28,300 nucleotides of DNA from a virus. Under the pieces are notes generated by a model, which was given only the letters and a program-made list of their open reading frames with translations, did no database searches and had not been told where the DNA came from. This document shows, one piece after another, positions 11,137-24,068 of this stretch (position 1 is its first letter; the number at the start of each line of letters is the position of its first letter). The stretch lies in IMG/VR virus record IMGVR_UViG_3300030106_002336, positions 1-28,300 of that record. One strand, written 5' to 3'. The translations under genes were made by a program, and so were the position numbers.

Positions 11137-11195
11137 AGCAATAGGGCAAAAAGCATATTGCATAATTTAACTTGCTTAATAAGGAGTAAAATATG
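11137..11195 (+). promoter_or_regulatory. ROSE-like RNA thermometer in the hsp20 leader
   Basis: Two hairpins fit this leader. Hairpin 1 pairs GCAATA 11138-11143 with TATTGC 11156-11161 around a 12-nt loop. Hairpin 2 buries the ribosome site: 11170-11173 ACTT and 11175-11177 CTT pair with 11181-11187 AAGGAGT around a 3-nt loop (11178-11180), with G11174 bulged and one U-G pair (11173/11184). Beyond one A-A mismatch, 11165-11168 pairs with 11189-11192, so the stem ends directly at the ATG (11193). The anti-SD strand contains UUGCU with its G bulged opposite AGGA. That is the known hallmark of ROSE elements upstream of proteobacterial ibpA/hsp20 genes. Heat would melt the stem and free the SD. 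Function inferred from sequence and pairing. Confidence 0.7.
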
Positions 11196-11624
11196 ACAAG
11201 TAAATTTCTTTTGGATTTAACACATCCATCTTTTAGCAAATCCTTAATCGGATTTGATTCGTTATTCAATGAGCTATCTAAGTTACAAAATTTAGATAGA
11301 GAATCTAATAGTTCTTATCCACCTTATAATCTTTATAGGGATGGTGAAATATATACAATAGAAATGGCAATGGCAGGTTTGTCTTCCAAAGATATTGATA
11401 TTGAATTAAAAGAAAGGGTATTGACTATTTCTTATGAAAAGAAAAATGATGATAATGATATAGCTGTCCATAAAGGTCTAGCTAATCGTTCATTTAGAAG
11501 AAGTTTTAATTTAGCAGAAGATATTGTTGTTAATAAAGCTTCACTAAAAAATGGATTACTTTCTATAGTTTTAGAAAAAATTATACCTGAAGATAAAAAA
11601 CCTATCAAAATAAAGGTATCTTAA
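11193..11624 (+). CDS. hsp20: small heat-shock protein Hsp20/IbpA family (143 aa)
   Basis: Alpha-crystallin-type ATP-independent chaperone that binds unfolding proteins. The N-terminal arm (1-40) includes GFDSLFNEL, the IbpA-like start of the family. The domain begins PPYNLYRDGEIYTIEMAMAG (about 43-62), continues through strands with KGLANRSFRRSFNLAE (about 91-106) and has the conserved NGLLSIVLEK (G-x-L) near residue 120. It ends with the family I-x-I anchor as IKIKV. Length is normal for IbpA. The gene has its own perfect promoter and a leader that can hide its ribosome site, so it is likely heat-controlled. sHSPs are known in marine T4-like cyanophages. Here one stands alone between late and middle genes and may protect virion or host proteins during infection. 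Confidence 0.93.
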   Translation: MTSKFLLDLTHPSFSKSLIGFDSLFNELSKLQNLDRESNSSYPPYNLYRDGEIYTIEMAMAGLSSKDIDIELKERVLTISYEKKNDDNDIAVHKGLANRSFRRSFNLAEDIVVNKASLKNGLLSIVLEKIIPEDKKPIKIKVS

Positions 11625-13585: not shown

Positions 13586-14026
13586 CTATTCTAATTCATT
13601 CTCTATAAAATCAGCTAAAGTGTTTATATCTGCATCAGATAAAATACTAGCTTGACTCCACATTGTAGAACTCATTCCTCCTCTAGTTTCTTTGTTCCTA
13701 TACTGTGTTAATGCTTCAATAATATAATCCTCATCTTTACCAATTAAAGATGGGAAAGCTCCTACTCCTTGTCCATTTTGTCCATGACAAGCAGCACAAC
13801 CACCCCACAAACCTCTAATACTTGAGTAAGGGTCTGCTAATGCTTGTTCATTTTTTTCTTCTAGTTGTTCTAATAAAGAGCCATGTTCTTTAATGTAATT
13901 ATCATAACACTCATCATAACATCCTTGTACTCGACTATATCCTTTATATTCAAGATTAGTTGTTATATAATACATAATAGATGCTAAGAATGTTATAATT
14001 AATATTATGAATTTTAAATCGTTCAT
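13586..14026 (-). CDS. membrane-anchored class I cytochrome c (146 aa)
   Basis: Haem-binding electron carrier, predicted to sit in the periplasm on an N-terminal anchor (hydrophobic residues about 5-21, no cleavage site obvious). The haem motif C77-A-A-C80-H81 begins a normal small cytochrome c fold: GGCAACHGQNGQGVGAFPSL, then the C-terminal MWSQASILSDADINTLADFI pattern, where M118 or M122 would be the sixth iron ligand. Two extra Cys (C36, C40) lie in the linker. Haem attachment would need the host Ccm system. It overlaps the upstream membrane protein gene by 4 nt and is inside the RNR operon. A cytochrome c in a phage is unusual. It may keep or divert respiratory electron flow during infection (inference). 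Confidence 0.9.
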   Translation of the reverse strand: MNDLKFIILIITFLASIMYYITTNLEYKGYSRVQGCYDECYDNYIKEHGSLLEQLEEKNEQALADPYSSIRGLWGGCAACHGQNGQGVGAFPSLIGKDEDYIIEALTQYRNKETRGGMSSTMWSQASILSDADINTLADFIENELE

Positions 14027-18275: not shown

Positions 18276-19989
18276 TCCAATTACCTCCTACTTTGTACTC
18301 TCCATCAAGAGGACATCGTAAATTAAAATGTTTGCCTGACTCTATGATTGACTTAACTGCCATATCTCCAAAGAAGTCAGCATACTCTTCTTTTACTTCA
18401 ACCTGCCATTCATCGTGTATGTTAGCGACAAATTTATAATCTATGTTATTACATGTTGCCCACTTGTCTGCTAATGTTAAAGCTTGTTTCATAACAATCG
18501 CACCTGCACCTTGTAGTAAACTATTTAAAGATGCATGTGCATTTCGTATGTATATCTTTCTCCCATCTAAACCTTTGAGATATTTCTTTGTTGCTGCTCT
18601 TTGAACTCTATCTCGAAGTGATTTAAATGATGGTTTATTAGCAAAGAAATGTTTTCTAATTCTCGAACCATCTGCTTTATTCCCTCCAACCACTTTGCCA
18701 AGTTTTTCATCTCCTGCTCCGTACATGAGGGCATAGATGAATGTTTTAGCCTGATTTCTTGATTTAAGTCCTGCAAGTTTTTGATTAGAGCTGTGTACAT
18801 CTCCGTTGATAATTTCATTAATAAACTCCTCGTCATTCATGTAATGTGCTAACATTCTTATCTCAAGACCACTAGCATCAATACCTACTAATTTATATCC
18901 TTCGTCTACTACCCAACAAGCTCTACACTCTTCACCATAAGGAGAAGCTAGACTAGGAACTTGAGCCATGTTAGGATTTCTATGTGTCATTCTACCTGTT
19001 ATAGTTCCATTAGGAATAACAAAACCATGTACTCTGTTATCTTCTGAAACTGCTTCAATCCATGAGTCGATTTGTGCTATGCGTTTTTGTAGTAATAAAA
19101 ACTCTGCTATTAAACCTGCTTCATGGATATGAGTTATCTGAGATAAAGTTTTCTCATCAACTATTGGTTGATTAGTAGGAGTAAATCTTTCAGGTTTCCA
19201 ACCCATCTCTATAAGATACTCTCCTATTTGTTTTCTTGAGCCTAAATTAAATGGCTCTAGTTTTCTTCTCATAAATGGCTCAAAATCGTTATTGGTTAGG
19301 CATGTATTATATTCATCATCTGTTAGACCCCTCTTCGATAATGAGCCATCTTTTTTAATGTAAGGTTTAACTATTCTATCATCAACCCATCTAGGTTTAA
19401 ATGTTTTATGAACTTCATCTTCTACACTTTGTAATCTTTCTCTTAATTGTGCAAGTAGTAAAGTAGCAGACTTACTATCAAAGCTAAATCCATTTATCTC
19501 TTGTTGGTTCATTATTTTTGCTACTTGATGTTCTAAGTCTACACTTTCTTTTGAAAAACCTTTTGACTCTATTTGTAATCTTTTGTAAACTAAAGTATTC
19601 AGTTGAACATCTCTAACGCAATAGTTTAACATCTCTGTTGAATAGTTTTGATAATCCTCAAACTCTATCTTGCGATATGATAATCTATAACCCCAATTAT
19701 CTAGGCTATGTCCTCCCTCTCTTGTTGGGTTAAACAACCTAGATAATACTAAAGTATCTACCACATTGTCCGTAAGTTTAATATTACCAAACTTTTCAAC
19801 CATAGGTATGTCAAACCCTAAAACATTATGACCTATCAACTGTTCAGCACTTTGTAAAAACTTATACCCCTCTTCTAGTTTATCAGGAGGAAACTTATAA
19901 ATTTTATTAGTGTCTATATCTTGTGCTACAATACACCATATCTTAGTAGCATTTAGGTCGTCTGTTTCTATGTCAAATATTAATCTCAA
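18262..19989 (-). CDS. family A DNA polymerase, T7 gp5-like (575 aa)
   Basis: Replicative polymerase with proofreading. The exonuclease domain shows D6-x-E8 (FDIETD), N55-x3-F59-D60 (HNVLGFD) and Y123-x3-D127 (YCVRD). The polymerase domain shows motif A D371 (DASGLEIRM), motif B R411-x3-K415-x3-Y419 (RNQAKTFIYALMYG) and motif C H525-D526-E527 (NIHDEW). The residue equivalent to E. coli Pol I F762 is Tyr (Y419), the T7-type version, which accepts ddNTPs and is usual in fast lytic phages. At 575 aa it is shorter than T7 gp5 (704), and I see no clear long thioredoxin-binding loop. Its ATG overlaps the primase-helicase stop (ATGA type). Confidence 0.95.
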   Translation of the reverse strand: MRLIFDIETDDLNATKIWCIVAQDIDTNKIYKFPPDKLEEGYKFLQSAEQLIGHNVLGFDIPMVEKFGNIKLTDNVVDTLVLSRLFNPTREGGHSLDNWGYRLSYRKIEFEDYQNYSTEMLNYCVRDVQLNTLVYKRLQIESKGFSKESVDLEHQVAKIMNQQEINGFSFDSKSATLLLAQLRERLQSVEDEVHKTFKPRWVDDRIVKPYIKKDGSLSKRGLTDDEYNTCLTNNDFEPFMRRKLEPFNLGSRKQIGEYLIEMGWKPERFTPTNQPIVDEKTLSQITHIHEAGLIAEFLLLQKRIAQIDSWIEAVSEDNRVHGFVIPNGTITGRMTHRNPNMAQVPSLASPYGEECRACWVVDEGYKLVGIDASGLEIRMLAHYMNDEEFINEIINGDVHSSNQKLAGLKSRNQAKTFIYALMYGAGDEKLGKVVGGNKADGSRIRKHFFANKPSFKSLRDRVQRAATKKYLKGLDGRKIYIRNAHASLNSLLQGAGAIVMKQALTLADKWATCNNIDYKFVANIHDEWQVEVKEEYADFFGDMAVKSIIESGKHFNLRCPLDGEYKVGGNWSETH

Positions 19990-21653
19990 AATGCATCTCC
20001 TTGTTCAGATTTTAAATCGTCAAAATCATCTACAACTTCTGCTAACCTGCCGGTATCTCCATCATATAATAAATGAGTAGCAAGTCCTACATCTCCTGTG
20101 TATCTTGATTTTAGTATTCTAACTTTTGTTGTTCTTGACTCTTCAGGGTCAGTAGCCTGTTGATTTCTTTCTAAAGCTATCACACAATCGGATAACTGTG
20201 CTATACTATTAGAACCTCTAAGATGTGATAAGCTAACTTGTATGCCATTCTCATGTCCTTTATTACCATCAACTCGTCTTAGATGAGATACTAATATTAT
20301 ACCTGCACCTGTTTCTTCAACCATACTTCTTAGTCTAGTCATAATATTATCTATGGCTCGTCTTTCATCTCCCTCAGATGTTGCACTAACTAGCATGTGT
20401 AAGTGGTCTACCACCACCCATTTACAACCACACCCTATAATCATAAATCTTAGTTTAGAAAATATCTCATCTATATCTGTTGTGCCAAAGTGAGCATGAA
20501 CCCAAACTCTGTTTTTATTATCGCCATCATAGAGTATATCAAAAAACTTATCTATATCATCTGTGCTAAATTGTTCTCGTATCTGGTCAATGTAAAGTCT
20601 GGCATTAGCCTCAATAGATATAATACCATCTATTGTTCTTCGCCAATCTTCTTCCAAAGCTATGACACCTACATTGTCCTGCGTAGTTTTTATTAAGTGA
20701 TGCTCTAACTCTCTTGTGACACTTGACTTACCTAGTCCTGTGCCACCTGTTAAAGTAACTAACTCTCCTTGTCTAAGTCCATATAACTTTTTGTTTAGCC
20801 CTTCCCAAGGATAAGGAACACTCTCTTTCTTTTCTCTGTTGTGAAACTTATCTCTAGTTTCAGAAACATTTATAACTCCACTAGGAGTATATGTTTTTGC
20901 TGACCACCATGCCTCAACAAACTCTTTATGCTTATTATTTTTAAGCATATCATTAGGGTCTTTCCACCCATTAGGCATTGTCATTATCTTACACTTGGCA
21001 GGTTTAAATAGTCTTGCAACTTTTACTGATGCTTCTTTACCTGCTTTGTCATTGTCAAAGGCAATAATAATATTTTCAAACTGCTCTAAAAACTCTAGGC
21101 TTTCTTTAACATCTTTTTCTGCACCTGCTGAACCTCTTTTAATTGATACTACTGCCCACTTACTACCTAGTAATTCATAGGTCGCCATGGCATCACACTC
21201 GCCCTCTGTTATTGTTATATACTTAGCTTGTTTAAATAACTGTTGTCCAAACAAACCTGTATTTTCAAATGAGCCACTAAGATAAAATCTTTTGTCTTTT
21301 GAGTATCTAGTTTTAGTAGCACTTAGTTCGTGTCCATTATAGTAAGGATAGAAATGTTGAATAACATCTCCTGCCTTATCATGTAGTACAGTCACACCAT
21401 ACTTCTGTGCTGTTGCCTTACTAATTCTCCTATCGGTCAAGTCTGCAAATGTTCCTTGACCAACAGGATTATCGTAAGAAGATTTTTTTGTAGTAGTTTC
21501 CATTACACTTTCCCCATTAAATAATTTATTATAATCAGGCATAAACTCGCCACAACTAAAACACTTAGCTGAACCATCAGTATTAATACCAACTGCATCG
21601 CTAGAATTACATAGTGGGCAAGGTTGATGCACCTTATCAAATCCATTATTCAT
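19986..21653 (-). CDS. fused primase-helicase, T7 gp4-like (555 aa)
   Basis: One chain makes primers and unwinds DNA. Numbered from an upstream ATG (559 aa), it has a zinc finger C16-x2-C19 ... C35-x2-C38 after H13, a TOPRIM primase domain with E155 (TEGECDA) and D204-x-D206 (AFDNDKAG), and a RecA-type DnaB helicase domain with Walker A GGTGLGKS (307-314, K313), Walker B VVVDH (D420) and later motifs VSHLRR and SHLRGSNSIAQLSD. The acidic C-terminus ends DAF, like the T7 gp4 tail that contacts the polymerase. I chose the start at 21653 because GGAGG sits five nt before it. ATG 21665 has no ribosome site. Confidence 0.95.
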   Translation of the reverse strand: MNNGFDKVHQPCPLCNSSDAVGINTDGSAKCFSCGEFMPDYNKLFNGESVMETTTKKSSYDNPVGQGTFADLTDRRISKATAQKYGVTVLHDKAGDVIQHFYPYYNGHELSATKTRYSKDKRFYLSGSFENTGLFGQQLFKQAKYITITEGECDAMATYELLGSKWAVVSIKRGSAGAEKDVKESLEFLEQFENIIIAFDNDKAGKEASVKVARLFKPAKCKIMTMPNGWKDPNDMLKNNKHKEFVEAWWSAKTYTPSGVINVSETRDKFHNREKKESVPYPWEGLNKKLYGLRQGELVTLTGGTGLGKSSVTRELEHHLIKTTQDNVGVIALEEDWRRTIDGIISIEANARLYIDQIREQFSTDDIDKFFDILYDGDNKNRVWVHAHFGTTDIDEIFSKLRFMIIGCGCKWVVVDHLHMLVSATSEGDERRAIDNIMTRLRSMVEETGAGIILVSHLRRVDGNKGHENGIQVSLSHLRGSNSIAQLSDCVIALERNQQATDPEESRTTKVRILKSRYTGDVGLATHLLYDGDTGRLAEVVDDFDDLKSEQGDAF

Positions 21654-21671
21654 GCCACCCTCCATAGTGGT

Positions 21672-21893
21672 TTACTTATTATTATCCTTTGACTTGGCAT
21701 CAGTTTCTACCAATGCCTCATCAGTTAATAAAGGTCTTAATTCTTCTTGTAGTTTATCGTTAGACTTTTGTAAACTAATTTGCATTTGATTGTTAAATGC
21801 CATTTGACTTACATAAGCCTGTATTTGTTGTCTTACTTTTTCATCAGAAACTTTTTCTGTATCGTAAGACTTACCATCAAAACTAATAATCAT
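21672..21893 (-). CDS. small coiled-coil protein (73 aa)
   Basis: Starts MIISFDGKSYDTEKVSDEKV, a short beta-hairpin-like unit that resembles DUF6447-type phage proteins (from memory, tentative), then a helix rich in Gln (QQIQAYVSQMAFNNQMQISL) and an acidic/Lys C-terminus. It lies between SSB and the primase-helicase genes, 2 nt from the first. It could be a replication accessory or simply unknown. Confidence 0.65.
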   Translation of the reverse strand: MIISFDGKSYDTEKVSDEKVRQQIQAYVSQMAFNNQMQISLQKSNDKLQEELRPLLTDEALVETDAKSKDNNK

Positions 21894-21895
21894 AA

Positions 21896-22303
21896 TTAAA
21901 ACTCCTCGTTGTCAGGGTCTGCTTCCCCATACTCAACTAAGTTATTAACCTTTACTGCAACTAACTCAGCAAAAGTTCCAAAGTCATTTGAGTAAGGTTT
22001 AAACTTTACTGTCACATCACTACCATTACCTACCAAAGTATCTAATGTATTACCATCAGTATCAATTAACTTTGGTGCAGGATTAGTAGCACCATCTCTG
22101 TTTGCAACTCTTTTAGCAAACTTAAAAGTAGGTTCTTCGTATTTTTCAGCACCTGATTTATCTTTAACTCTTGATAAACCAATGCTTTCTAAACGACCAG
22201 CTTCATCTTCATTTGTTGTCAAGTATATTAAATACTGACCGAACTTATTCGGTGTAGACACACTTGCCCACAACGAACTTCCATTAGCATATTCTACTGC
22301 CAT
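21896..22303 (-). CDS. single-stranded DNA-binding protein, T7 gp2.5-like (135 aa)
   Basis: Coats ssDNA and recruits polymerase and helicase. The protein is small and beta-rich with N-terminal VEYANGSSLWASVSTPNKFG and strands (FGQYLIYLTTNED, DVTVKFKPYSNDFGTFAELV). It ends in an acidic tail closing with Phe (YGEADPDNEEF). The acidic, Phe-ended tail is the key interaction feature of T7 gp2.5. It is shorter than T7 gp2.5 (232 aa), so it is assigned by fold pattern, tail and place in front of the replication genes. It is the first gene after a perfect promoter (22337-22365), with TAGGAGG as ribosome site. Confidence 0.8.
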   Translation of the reverse strand: MAVEYANGSSLWASVSTPNKFGQYLIYLTTNEDEAGRLESIGLSRVKDKSGAEKYEEPTFKFAKRVANRDGATNPAPKLIDTDGNTLDTLVGNGSDVTVKFKPYSNDFGTFAELVAVKVNNLVEYGEADPDNEEF

Positions 22304-22336
22304 AATATAATCCTCCTATAGATTAAATTGTTGACC

Positions 22337-22365
22337 ATTATAACATTTTTAGATTGAAAAGTCAA
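22337..22365 (-). promoter_or_regulatory. sigma70-type promoter of the SSB/replication operon
   Basis: On the minus strand TTGACT (22365-22360) and TATAAT (22342-22337) are 17 nt apart, a near-perfect match to the consensus. The start of transcription should be near 22330, about 27 nt before the SSB ATG (22303). It drives the long middle operon that continues to the terminator at 11750. Confidence 0.85.
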
Positions 22366-22382
22366 TACCTGTTTTGAGGTAT
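22365..22382. promoter_or_regulatory. inverted repeat abutting the -35 box (candidate operator)
   Basis: ATACCT 22365-22370 and AGGTAT 22377-22382 form a 6-bp dyad with a 6-nt spacer (GTTTTG). One arm touches the last base of the TTGACT -35 box of the replication promoter. This is the right size and place for a dimeric regulator site. Confidence 0.45.
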
Positions 22383-22408
22383 GTCACAGGCAAAACATTC
22401 AGAACTGA

Positions 22409-22448
22409 GTAGCATACGAAAAGGTGATTTATGAGGGCAATATGCTAC
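22409..22448. other. 8-bp inverted repeat with competing stem
   Basis: GTAGCATA 22409-22416 pairs perfectly with TATGCTAC 22441-22448 around a 24-nt loop. In minus-strand RNA an alternative stem between AGGTG (22453-22449) and CACCT (22424-22420) would exclude it. No T-tract follows, so it is not a normal terminator. It may be an attenuator-like or processing element between the small ORF and the replication promoter, or the 3' part of the structured RNA upstream. Confidence 0.4.
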
Positions 22449-22456
22449 ACCTCTTT

Positions 22457-22639
22457 TTAAATATTTTCTTCTTTTATTAATAACCAATCAGCAACAATTT
22501 CTGTAGCTGTATCATTGGATAATTTGAATTTGTTTTGTAATTGTGCAGGGTAGCCATCAATGTTAGCAACCGAGCTGTCTGTAATCTCATCTAAAAATGT
22601 GAAATATTTTTTTATATTATTTTCCATATTATTTTCCAT
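22457..22639 (-). CDS. small hypothetical protein (60 aa)
   Basis: Starts MENNMENNIKKYFTFLDEIT (a short internal repeat gives two possible ATGs, 22639 and 22627) and ends FKLSNDTATEIVADWLLIKE plus a few residues. This looks like a small soluble helical phage protein. There is no good ribosome site for either start. It is the only coding-looking frame between the replication promoter and the large non-coding region. Confidence 0.5.
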   Translation of the reverse strand: MENNMENNIKKYFTFLDEITDSSVANIDGYPAQLQNKFKLSNDTATEIVADWLLIKEENI

Positions 22640-22669
22640 ATCTAAAGTTTAGTGCTAGTTTATTTGGAT

Positions 22670-23257
22670 TTAAGACTGCTTTGAACTCTAGCAAACTCAG
22701 TCTGCACATATTGGCTTTGTTGTTTATCGTCTGTTCAAACCCCTCGCTAAATGAGAAAAATCGGACTAGTAGAACCTATGACCACTTCCTGATGGTAGAG
22801 CCTAAATCGGTGGGGTTATTTCAAGAACCCATTAACTACTGCCACTCTGAAGTCCTACAAGATACTTACACTTTTAAAGTCGTCTAACAGTCAGTATCAA
22901 TACTGTTAGGGAGACTTTTAGGTAGTCGCATGATGGTCTCTAGCACTTATTTGCGTTTTATCCTTGACTTCCCTCGTCACTCTGTATAAAACAGCACAGA
23001 CTTCAAGATTTTATAAAGGCTCATTACCTACCTAAACTAAAAGCAAGGTGTTGTTTATATGACTTCTCCTAGCCTAACTTACAGAGTATATATCCTCTAT
23101 TGTAAGTTACAAACTTCAGTGCCTCATCAAACGGCTATCGTCCTTTAAGTCCTTGCCGTATTCTAGGACACCTTGCAAACTTTAAAATTCGACCCTCTAA
23201 TTTCGCTTCTAACGAAAAGTTTTAGGGGTAGCAAGGGTAAGATACCCCCTAATTTTA
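22670..23257 (-). ncRNA. candidate large structured phage RNA (about 590 nt)
   Basis: This region has no credible gene on either strand and is visibly richer in G+C than its surroundings. Many perfect complementary segments nest or follow each other: 22673-22678/22698-22703; 22763-22772 with 22836-22840 and 22851-22855; 22878-22881/22913-22916 enclosing 22884-22891/22902-22909; 22917-22925/23028-23036 (9 bp) enclosing 22963-22967/23003-23007 and 22982-22985/22991-22994; 23043-23051/23168-23176 (9 bp) enclosing 23076-23083/23101-23108 (8 bp) and 23131-23135/23155-23159; 23192-23205/23213-23229; and 23235-23239/23243-23247. A minus-strand promoter lies at 23264-23292 with expected start near 23257, so the minus strand is favoured. 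It recalls large phage RNAs such as GOLLD or ROOL in size and context, but I recognise no conserved motif of a named class. Confidence 0.7.
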
Positions 23258-23530
23258 GTAATTATTAAACACATCTGTTATGATAGGCTCAACATAATCG
23301 TAGGCTACATCATCAAATGTATATATAAAATTACCTCCTTGTGTTTGTTGTTTATTAAAAAATACAGGCTCATCAACCTTGTTTAAACTTTCTATCTCTT
23401 TATCAAACTGCTCTGCCTGTTGAGGTGTTAAATGCCAAGTCACTTCCCAAGGTGCTTCTGGGTGTGGGTAATATGTTATACCTTTATAACCCACATCTTC
23501 TTTTGTTTCTGTTGTCAAGTCTTTTAACAT
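23255..23530 (-). CDS. hypothetical early protein (91 aa)
   Basis: Soluble, mixed alpha/beta protein: MLKDLTTETKEDVGYKGITY, then PHPEAPWEVTWHLTPQQAEQ and an aromatic, acidic C-terminus (YTFDDVAYDYVEPIITDVFN). GGGGAG precedes its ATG. It overlaps the upstream gene end by 7 nt. No family recognised. Its 3' end contains the probable promoter of the structured RNA. Confidence 0.65.
   Translation of the reverse strand: MLKDLTTETKEDVGYKGITYYPHPEAPWEVTWHLTPQQAEQFDKEIESLNKVDEPVFFNKQQTQGGNFIYTFDDVAYDYVEPIITDVFNNY
23264..23292 (-). promoter_or_regulatory. probable promoter for the structured RNA
   Basis: On the minus strand TTGAGC (23292-23287) and TTTAAT (23269-23264) are 17 nt apart: 4/6 and 5/6 matches to consensus. 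Predicted start about 23257, right at the first hairpin of the non-coding region and at the end of the 91-aa gene that it overlaps. Weaker than the other promoters but well placed. Confidence 0.5.
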
Positions 23531-23775
23531 ACACTCCCCTTTGCCATCTCGTCTATATCTTTAGATGATATTGTATCAGAAGATTGGTTAGATAAATACT
23601 CTATCATTCCTCTAAACATAACTGTATCTGTCACAACACCCTCATGTTCAACACAATAATTAAACATATAATCTTTACAATCATCTTGTAAGTCTTGTCG
23701 TGTTATCAAACACCATTCTTTTTCAACAAACTCATTAGCTTGTTCCATTATTAAATCATTAATTATATTACTCAT
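23524..23775 (-). CDS. hypothetical early protein (83 aa)
   Basis: I place the start at ATG 23775, which has GGAG seven nt upstream. A longer frame beginning at 23790 has no ribosome site of its own. The product starts MSNIINDLIMEQANEFVEKE, is helical and acidic with several Cys (WCLI, DDCKDY, NYCVEH, final VC). No motif recognised. Part of the run of tiny overlapping early genes. Confidence 0.6.
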   Translation of the reverse strand: MSNIINDLIMEQANEFVEKEWCLITRQDLQDDCKDYMFNYCVEHEGVVTDTVMFRGMIEYLSNQSSDTISSKDIDEMAKGSVC

Positions 23776-23962
23776 TAAAAGTCTCCTCAAAATTCATTTT
23801 TACGCCTAACATATTTTCAAATAATTTCAATCCCTCCGTTGAATTTATTTCAGGCTCGTTAAAGTTTCTTCTTTCTTGGTTAGTTAAGTGCAACCAATAT
23901 CTAAAGTTTTCATAGTCTGTTTGACTATCGTTCCATTCCCATCTTAGTATTTCGCCCATCAT
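23768..23962 (-). CDS. hypothetical early protein (64 aa)
   Basis: Starts MMGEILRWEWNDSQTDYENF. ATG 23962 is preferred over the in-frame ATG 23974 because GGAG lies just before it. The middle is LHLTNQERRNFNEPEINSTE, acidic at the end. It overlaps the next gene (8 nt) and the 47-aa gene upstream (38 nt in another frame). Function unknown. Confidence 0.55.
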   Translation of the reverse strand: MMGEILRWEWNDSQTDYENFRYWLHLTNQERRNFNEPEINSTEGLKLFENMLGVKMNFEETFNE

Positions 23963-24068
23963 TTTTATCTCCATAATTTTTTATCTTTATAAATTCATTT
24001 TCATCTGTGCCAATTAAATCTTGGCTATCATACCAATCATCAACTAACTTATCTAATTCTTCTTCCAT
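23925..24068 (-). CDS. tiny acidic early protein (47 aa)
   Basis: The first ATG after a strong promoter (24095-24123), with TTTGGAGG as ribosome site 8 nt upstream. The product starts MEEELDKLVDDWYDSQDLIG, strongly acidic, then turns basic (KIKNYGDKNDGRNTKMGMER) after it enters the overlap with the next gene. The promoter and ribosome site make translation very likely even though it is short. Function unknown. Confidence 0.6.
   Translation of the reverse strand: MEEELDKLVDDWYDSQDLIGTDENEFIKIKNYGDKNDGRNTKMGMER

Follow-up and report, generated by a model that had tools for sequence, protein, structure and literature searches.

What occupies the roughly 590 nt without a gene that lie between the early and the replication genes of this viral genome? 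The window analysed here, 28,300 nt at its full length, comes from a viral record of 36.6 kb that carries primase-helicase, DNA polymerase A and ribonucleotide reductase genes. By primase-helicase, its nearest isolates are the pelagiphages HTVC104P, HTVC103P and HTVC115P (47–50% identity), and the gene order at the single-stranded DNA-binding protein (SSB) gene matches that of HTVC104P. The region in question (22640–23257) lies between the p91 ORF and the p60 and SSB genes, all on the minus strand. A sequence-only reading had taken it to be non-coding, richer in GC than its surroundings and the template of a new large structured phage RNA. The first two points were confirmed: on the minus strand, no ORF within 22640–23254 reaches 50 aa, homologous loci have retained no ORF either, and GC content is 0.396 at 22751–23250 compared to 0.33 on each side. 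The sole plus-strand ORF (22681–22887, TTG start) opposes the operon direction and is not conserved among relatives. The p60 ORF is identical in one close relative (L224) and missing from an otherwise near-identical one (L129), apparently a recent gain or loss. Elsewhere in the window, a c-type cytochrome domain (13586–14026, minus strand; Pfam Cytochrom_C, E 1e-8) lies beside the ribonucleotide reductase genes, an Hsp20 small heat-shock protein gene occupies 11193–11624 of the plus strand (Pfam HSP20, E 6e-15), and a large protein encoded at 133–2502 of the same strand carries long repeats rich in threonine and proline towards its start.

The helices that had suggested an RNA are present: two long-range 9-bp stems match exactly at the positions proposed for them, and the 8-bp hairpins were found as claimed. 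By themselves, these stems are no evidence of structure, and the whole region folded no better than shuffled sequence (z = –0.34 and –0.31 for the two strands). Among the modules described below, M2 reached z = –2.7 against shuffles, and M5 and D folded worse than shuffles (z = +1.0 and +1.8). A covariance search of the window against Rfam at the gathering score gave no match to GOLLD, ROOL, OLE, HEARO, IMES, group I intron or RNase P families, and at a relaxed threshold the region together with 16 related loci gave no relevant match. ARAGORN returned no tRNA or tmRNA. Because the folding energy is ordinary and Rfam was empty, the case for structure rests on comparison with related loci.

A scan with the helicase yielded 80 loci. 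SSB lay upstream of the helicase in nearly all of those with sequence reaching far enough, and many had a gap of roughly 250–500 nt upstream of SSB with pieces of the window sequence in it, some of them reordered. Further contigs came from pattern scans for three of these pieces and later two more, and Blast with seed arrays brought the collection to 152 distinct array-like stretches. When each piece was represented by seed sequences, the 152 stretches spelled 105 distinct module strings, and the 104 stretches with at least three pieces spelled 81. The same module search gave 678 matches on real sequence, with the modules on the same strand; neither block-shuffled sequence nor the opposite strand gave any. 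In these related marine phages, the arrays usually lie immediately ahead of the SSB/primase genes. The notion of a single fixed 590-nt fold like GOLLD or ROOL therefore had to be given up, as the locus is a mosaic whose module number, order and content vary between phages. In the window there are about seven self-contained modules, most with a proposed or proven pseudoknot, and the two long-range stems are the closing helices of two separate ones, M2 and E (Table 1).

Table 1. Modules of the RNA array and neighbouring features in the window.
Feature	Position	Strand	Details
RNA module array	22640..23257	-	5′ to 3′ M1, M2, E, M4, M5, D, D3; homologues in ~150 array stretches on other viral contigs
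M1	23180..23252	-	hairpins 23246-23252/23222-23228 and 23213-23217/23201-23205; proposed pseudoknot 23234-23238/23192-23196
M2	23043..23176	-	outer 9-bp stem 23168-23176/23043-23051; helix 23166-23169/23149-23152
M2, inner parts	23155-23159/23131-23135; 23101-23108/23076-23083	-	pseudoknot; hairpin
E	22917..23036	-	P1 23028-23036/22917-22925; pseudoknot 23022-23024/22933-22935
E, inner helices	23016-23019/22962-22965; 22952-22955/22927-22930	-	P2; P3
U-type hairpin	22970..23010	-	exchangeable, nested in P2 of E; stem 22996-23000/22981-22985
M4	22878..22916	-	hairpin 22902-22909/22884-22891, closed by AGUC/GACU
M5	22766..22861	-	outer helix of 12 bp enclosing three 4-bp helices, all nested
D	22700..22771	-	P1; P2 hairpin 22753-22755/22743-22745; pseudoknot about 22737-22741/22713-22718
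D3	22654..22702	-	stem 22698-22702/22674-22678; proposed pseudoknot 22688-22692/22654-22658
p60 ORF	22457..22639	-	lacks a clear ribosome-binding site; lies outside the RNA
A3	about 22373..22458	-	beyond the p60 ORF; relative of the module opening most other arrays
Promoter-like site of SSB operon	22337..22365	-	TTGACT-17-TATAAT, 11/12
SSB gene	21896..22303	-	downstream of array; weak PHROG 112 match, E 8e-4
Primase-helicase gene	19986..21665	-	Pfam DnaB_C and Toprim

The arrays range from ~100 to 750 nt and from one to about nine modules, and they follow a loose grammar: A comes first, directly after the promoter, then B, C or E; D comes late, and K, F, G or E last. Several pairs of modules are found either way round: the window has M4-M5-D, L179 has M5-M4-D and L319 has M4-K-M5-D. 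Hairpins move on a smaller scale. The T hairpin was found within M2 (L224, L292 and L345, where it replaces the inner hairpin), within E (L129 and L084) and alone (L179), and the U hairpin within E, within B and alone; in other E, B and C copies the P2 position holds a U, T, X, Y or Z hairpin or a minimal loop. Modules within one array are mutually unlike, with at most an occasional second copy of D. Their ends differ freely yet stay complementary, as the P1 sequences illustrate, and an integron-like attC cassette array was rejected since the units share no common recombination-site ends. In searches of whole records, no record had more than one array place; the partial contig L120 shows two. 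The A3 module is kept in L129, in L224 (98%) and in L001–L003. T runs resembling intrinsic terminators follow the M2 stems in L002 and L003 and the A3 stems in L001–L003, in which the last A3 stem is the one concerned.

Exchange was clearest between phages that are otherwise nearly the same. L129, the nearest relative, is 95.6% identical to the window over 19156–22456, 92% over 22912–24024 and 97.6% over D–D3; in it, U and K modules replace M4 and M5, and the E module contains a T hairpin rather than the U-type. L224 (89% identity overall) has a T hairpin in M2 and two tandem copies of D, and lacks M5. L113 is the same virus (100%). Among the A-type phages, at least five different arrays (A-B-H, A-C-F, A-C(Z)-D-F, A-C-D-F and A-U-F) precede an 84-aa protein of identical sequence. 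As an identical protein occurs with five arrays and the same modules precede unrelated genes, array content is not tied to one gene.

Compensatory changes in the stems of homologous loci, whose absence would have refuted the sequence-only reading, were found in several modules. Of the E family, 74 distinct copies were collected, which fall into the subfamilies E, B and C. From one subfamily to another, P2 and P3 are displaced by one base; a joint column alignment of the three was therefore rejected in favour of parsing the strands by conserved anchors. All four Watson-Crick types occur at the pseudoknot pair (GC 30, AU 25, UA 11 and CG 7), P2 appears as CCUU/AAGG, CUAC/GUAG, CUUAC/GUAAG, UUUAC/GUAGA, CCAC/GUGG and CCUAU/AUAGG, and P1 takes many different sequences. 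The loops, in contrast, are nearly invariant (U[G/A]UAAAA, AU[A/G]AA and AAUGAGNNCUANAACC; UAUAAAA, AUAAAA and AAUAAGUGCUA in the E module), so that loops stay fixed while stems vary. A lone E-type element on a 58,959-base contig of a different phage group (L087) has its own compensating pseudoknot pair, ACG/CGU. The column alignment of M2 was also shifted and rejected, and its helices are given as strand pairs; its pseudoknot reads ACGGC/GCCGT, ACAGC/GCTGT, CGAC/GTCG or AGGAT/ATCCT among relatives. The strand pairs of M4 are CTAACAGT/ACTGTTAG, CTAACTAT/ATAGTTAG and CCAACAGT/ACTGTTGG. D3, carried by 16 arrays, has GACTG/CAGTC or GACAG/CTGTC, the latter in L104, L156 and others. M1 is kept with little variation in L129 and L224, too few relatives for covariation.

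For D and M5 the changes were counted against shuffle controls, which ignore relatedness and with which slid controls for both modules agree. Across 23 sequences of D, 89.9% of cells were paired compared to 82.1% in shuffles, and covariation was 0.244, a value reached by 0 of 500 shuffles, compared to 0.110; GC, AU and UA all occur at one of its pseudoknot pairs. In 14 sequences of M5, 98.8% of cells were paired (81.5% in shuffles), and 64 cells showed double changes compared to 20.5, again reached by 0 of 500 shuffles. The covariance model of D (R1) finds one copy in this genome. G-U pairs on the minus strand point to an RNA of that strand. At the level of sequence comparison, these results establish the conserved RNA folds, their strand, their modularity and their exchange, and we consider it almost certain that the region specifies a real, modular structured RNA. 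The proposal of a new large structured non-coding phage RNA, outside the named classes of Rfam, is upheld in this modular form.

The promoters of relatives suggest how the arrays are transcribed. A perfect TTGACA-17-TATAAT was present in 30 of the 57 A-first arrays with upstream sequence, and 9 more had an 11/12 match; shuffled upstream sequence never reached 12/12 (0 of 1,140). The –10 box mostly ends 11–15 nt before A, and with strong promoters at this distance the transcript of these relatives should start near the first base of the array. In the relatives, this supports strong transcription of the sigma-70 type from the first module onward. In the window, the promoter that the sequence-only reading placed near 23257 exists as a site but is weak: it matches at 9 of 12 positions, the best found in this lineage, which lacks a perfect promoter, and such sites were about as common in shuffles. 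Early promoters farther upstream may instead drive the window array. Many relatives have no terminator between the array and the next gene, whose ribosome-binding site the array directly adjoins. We infer that transcription of the array is early and abundant.

The genes that follow arrays mostly encode the 84-aa basic protein and otherwise include helicase, SSB and many unrelated small genes. The protein belongs to a family of 80–100 aa (L009, L013, L016 and many other loci) with a conserved basic tail like RDRNNARRRQKRL, and was predicted to form a β hairpin and a long helix (pLDDT 86). It had no match in Pfam, PHROG or PDB, and a fold search was empty. It is absent from the window, and its candidacy as an RNA-binding partner is only a guess. 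A search of 50,697 phage records with four different arrays gave no match. GTDB contained a single match to the D pattern, in Acetobacterium, which was put down to chance as the D covariance model gave it no support. Rfam, the phage records and the literature, of which coverage was incomplete, contained no description of a phage RNA built of shuffled and nested modules; this kind of RNA is apparently undescribed, and an earlier description may exist given that incomplete coverage.

Some known systems share single features with the arrays. ToxI, the RNA antitoxin of type III toxin-antitoxin systems, consists of tandem RNA units that form pseudoknots. These units are near-identical repeats next to the gene of an endoribonuclease toxin, whereas array modules are unlike each other; the tested small proteins downstream of arrays or flanking them matched no ToxN-like or other toxin in Pfam, PHROG or PADLOC. 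With no near-identical tandem repeats and no adjacent toxin, a type III system was rejected. Module D, which also has U-rich and A-rich single strands, is similar to the H-type pseudoknot of SAM-II, which likewise combines a pseudoknot and a single stem with one U-rich and one A-rich strand. The extra hairpin of D and its lack of an Rfam match set the two apart, so the likeness is a lead only. A riboswitch was rejected because the same modules precede many unrelated genes and show no association with ligand-related genes.

What the RNA does can be approached by weighing four other readings against a role in trans. The main rival is a leader acting in cis: the array would serve as a long 5′ untranslated region of the transcript on which it acts, for example by antitermination in the manner of put RNA, by shielding the early mRNA from RNases or by governing its processing. 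The promoter just ahead of the first module in many relatives and the last module adjoining the next ribosome-binding site both suit it, as does the presence of arrays before many operons, which fits an operon-level rather than a gene-level role. A put-like RNA binds RNA polymerase and thereby suppresses pausing and termination, and put itself is a short fixed element. The arrays are likewise structured RNA, and a promoter closely precedes them in relatives, that of the window being weak; but they combine up to about nine unlike modules that are exchanged independently of the downstream genes. Phage HK022 supplies a precedent in put, a structured RNA of its early transcripts that acts alone (PMC9378689). 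A cis leader leaves unexplained why the modules change before an identical downstream protein and why many unlike modules with fixed loops are needed, and the strong promoter of the window lies after the array, before SSB. We regard it as somewhat less likely than a role in trans.

We give considerably less weight to an architectural RNA in which the modules build a large RNA-only assembly. Like the arrays, GOLLD and ROOL are large, ornate, non-coding RNAs of phage origin, and the 5′ region of GOLLD is less conserved (PMC12286853). Unlike them, the arrays have no common core scaffold, their modules are shuffled, nested and lost, and no Rfam match in sequence or structure was found; their range of length and module number is ill-suited to a fixed symmetric cage, and this reading is improbable. 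A role in replication, as a structured primer transcript or a single-stranded origin by SSB, primase-helicase and DNA polymerase, would account for the array neighbouring replication genes in the window as in many relatives. However, arrays also precede unrelated genes (in L093 and L096, several kb separate them from SSB and helicase), GC skew does not turn at the region, and the pairing fits an RNA of one strand, which makes it more improbable still. Chance stems in a non-functional intergenic spacer would agree with folding energies equal to those of shuffled sequence, but covariation of D, M5 and E far above shuffles and slid controls refutes this explanation and leaves it practically no probability.

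Our best guess, tentative as it is, is that the array RNA is a platform in trans, each module binding a host or phage factor. The array would be made as the first part of an early transcript and fold as separate modules, which recombination between phages would add, remove, reorder and nest, while selection would preserve the fold and loop sequences of each. Because the modules move independently of each other and of the downstream gene, each may have its own partner or task. As a platform or decoy, the RNA would use each module to bind a macromolecule of the host or the phage during takeover. The module set would follow the changing targets of the host, much like anti-defence genes, whose pattern of exchange the arrays resemble. 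The abutment of array and ribosome-binding site, which suits a leader, and the weak promoter of the window count against this. For the whole statement of a mosaic, early-transcribed platform or decoy in trans whose modules track host targets, we estimate a probability of about 0.4; the function, the action in trans and the binding partners are the parts that we infer.

Energy-based screens miss such RNAs, as D and M5 fold worse than shuffles yet covary strongly. Phage mosaicism is known for genes; here it extends to RNA domains below gene size, including hairpins swapped inside folds. The recurring modules with fixed loops resemble binding or catalytic cores, and well over a dozen undescribed RNA folds are now listed for probing and structure solution. 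SAR11 bacteria are among the commonest in the ocean. The nearest isolates by helicase infect SAR11, and the host processes concerned could be important. Possibly, the array-bearing phages have a new kind of genetic entity, a combinatorial RNA on which selection and exchange act at the level of the pseudoknotted module. Its modules would serve as changeable effectors against, or mimics of, host factors, and would evolve as anti-defence gene islands do, but without protein.
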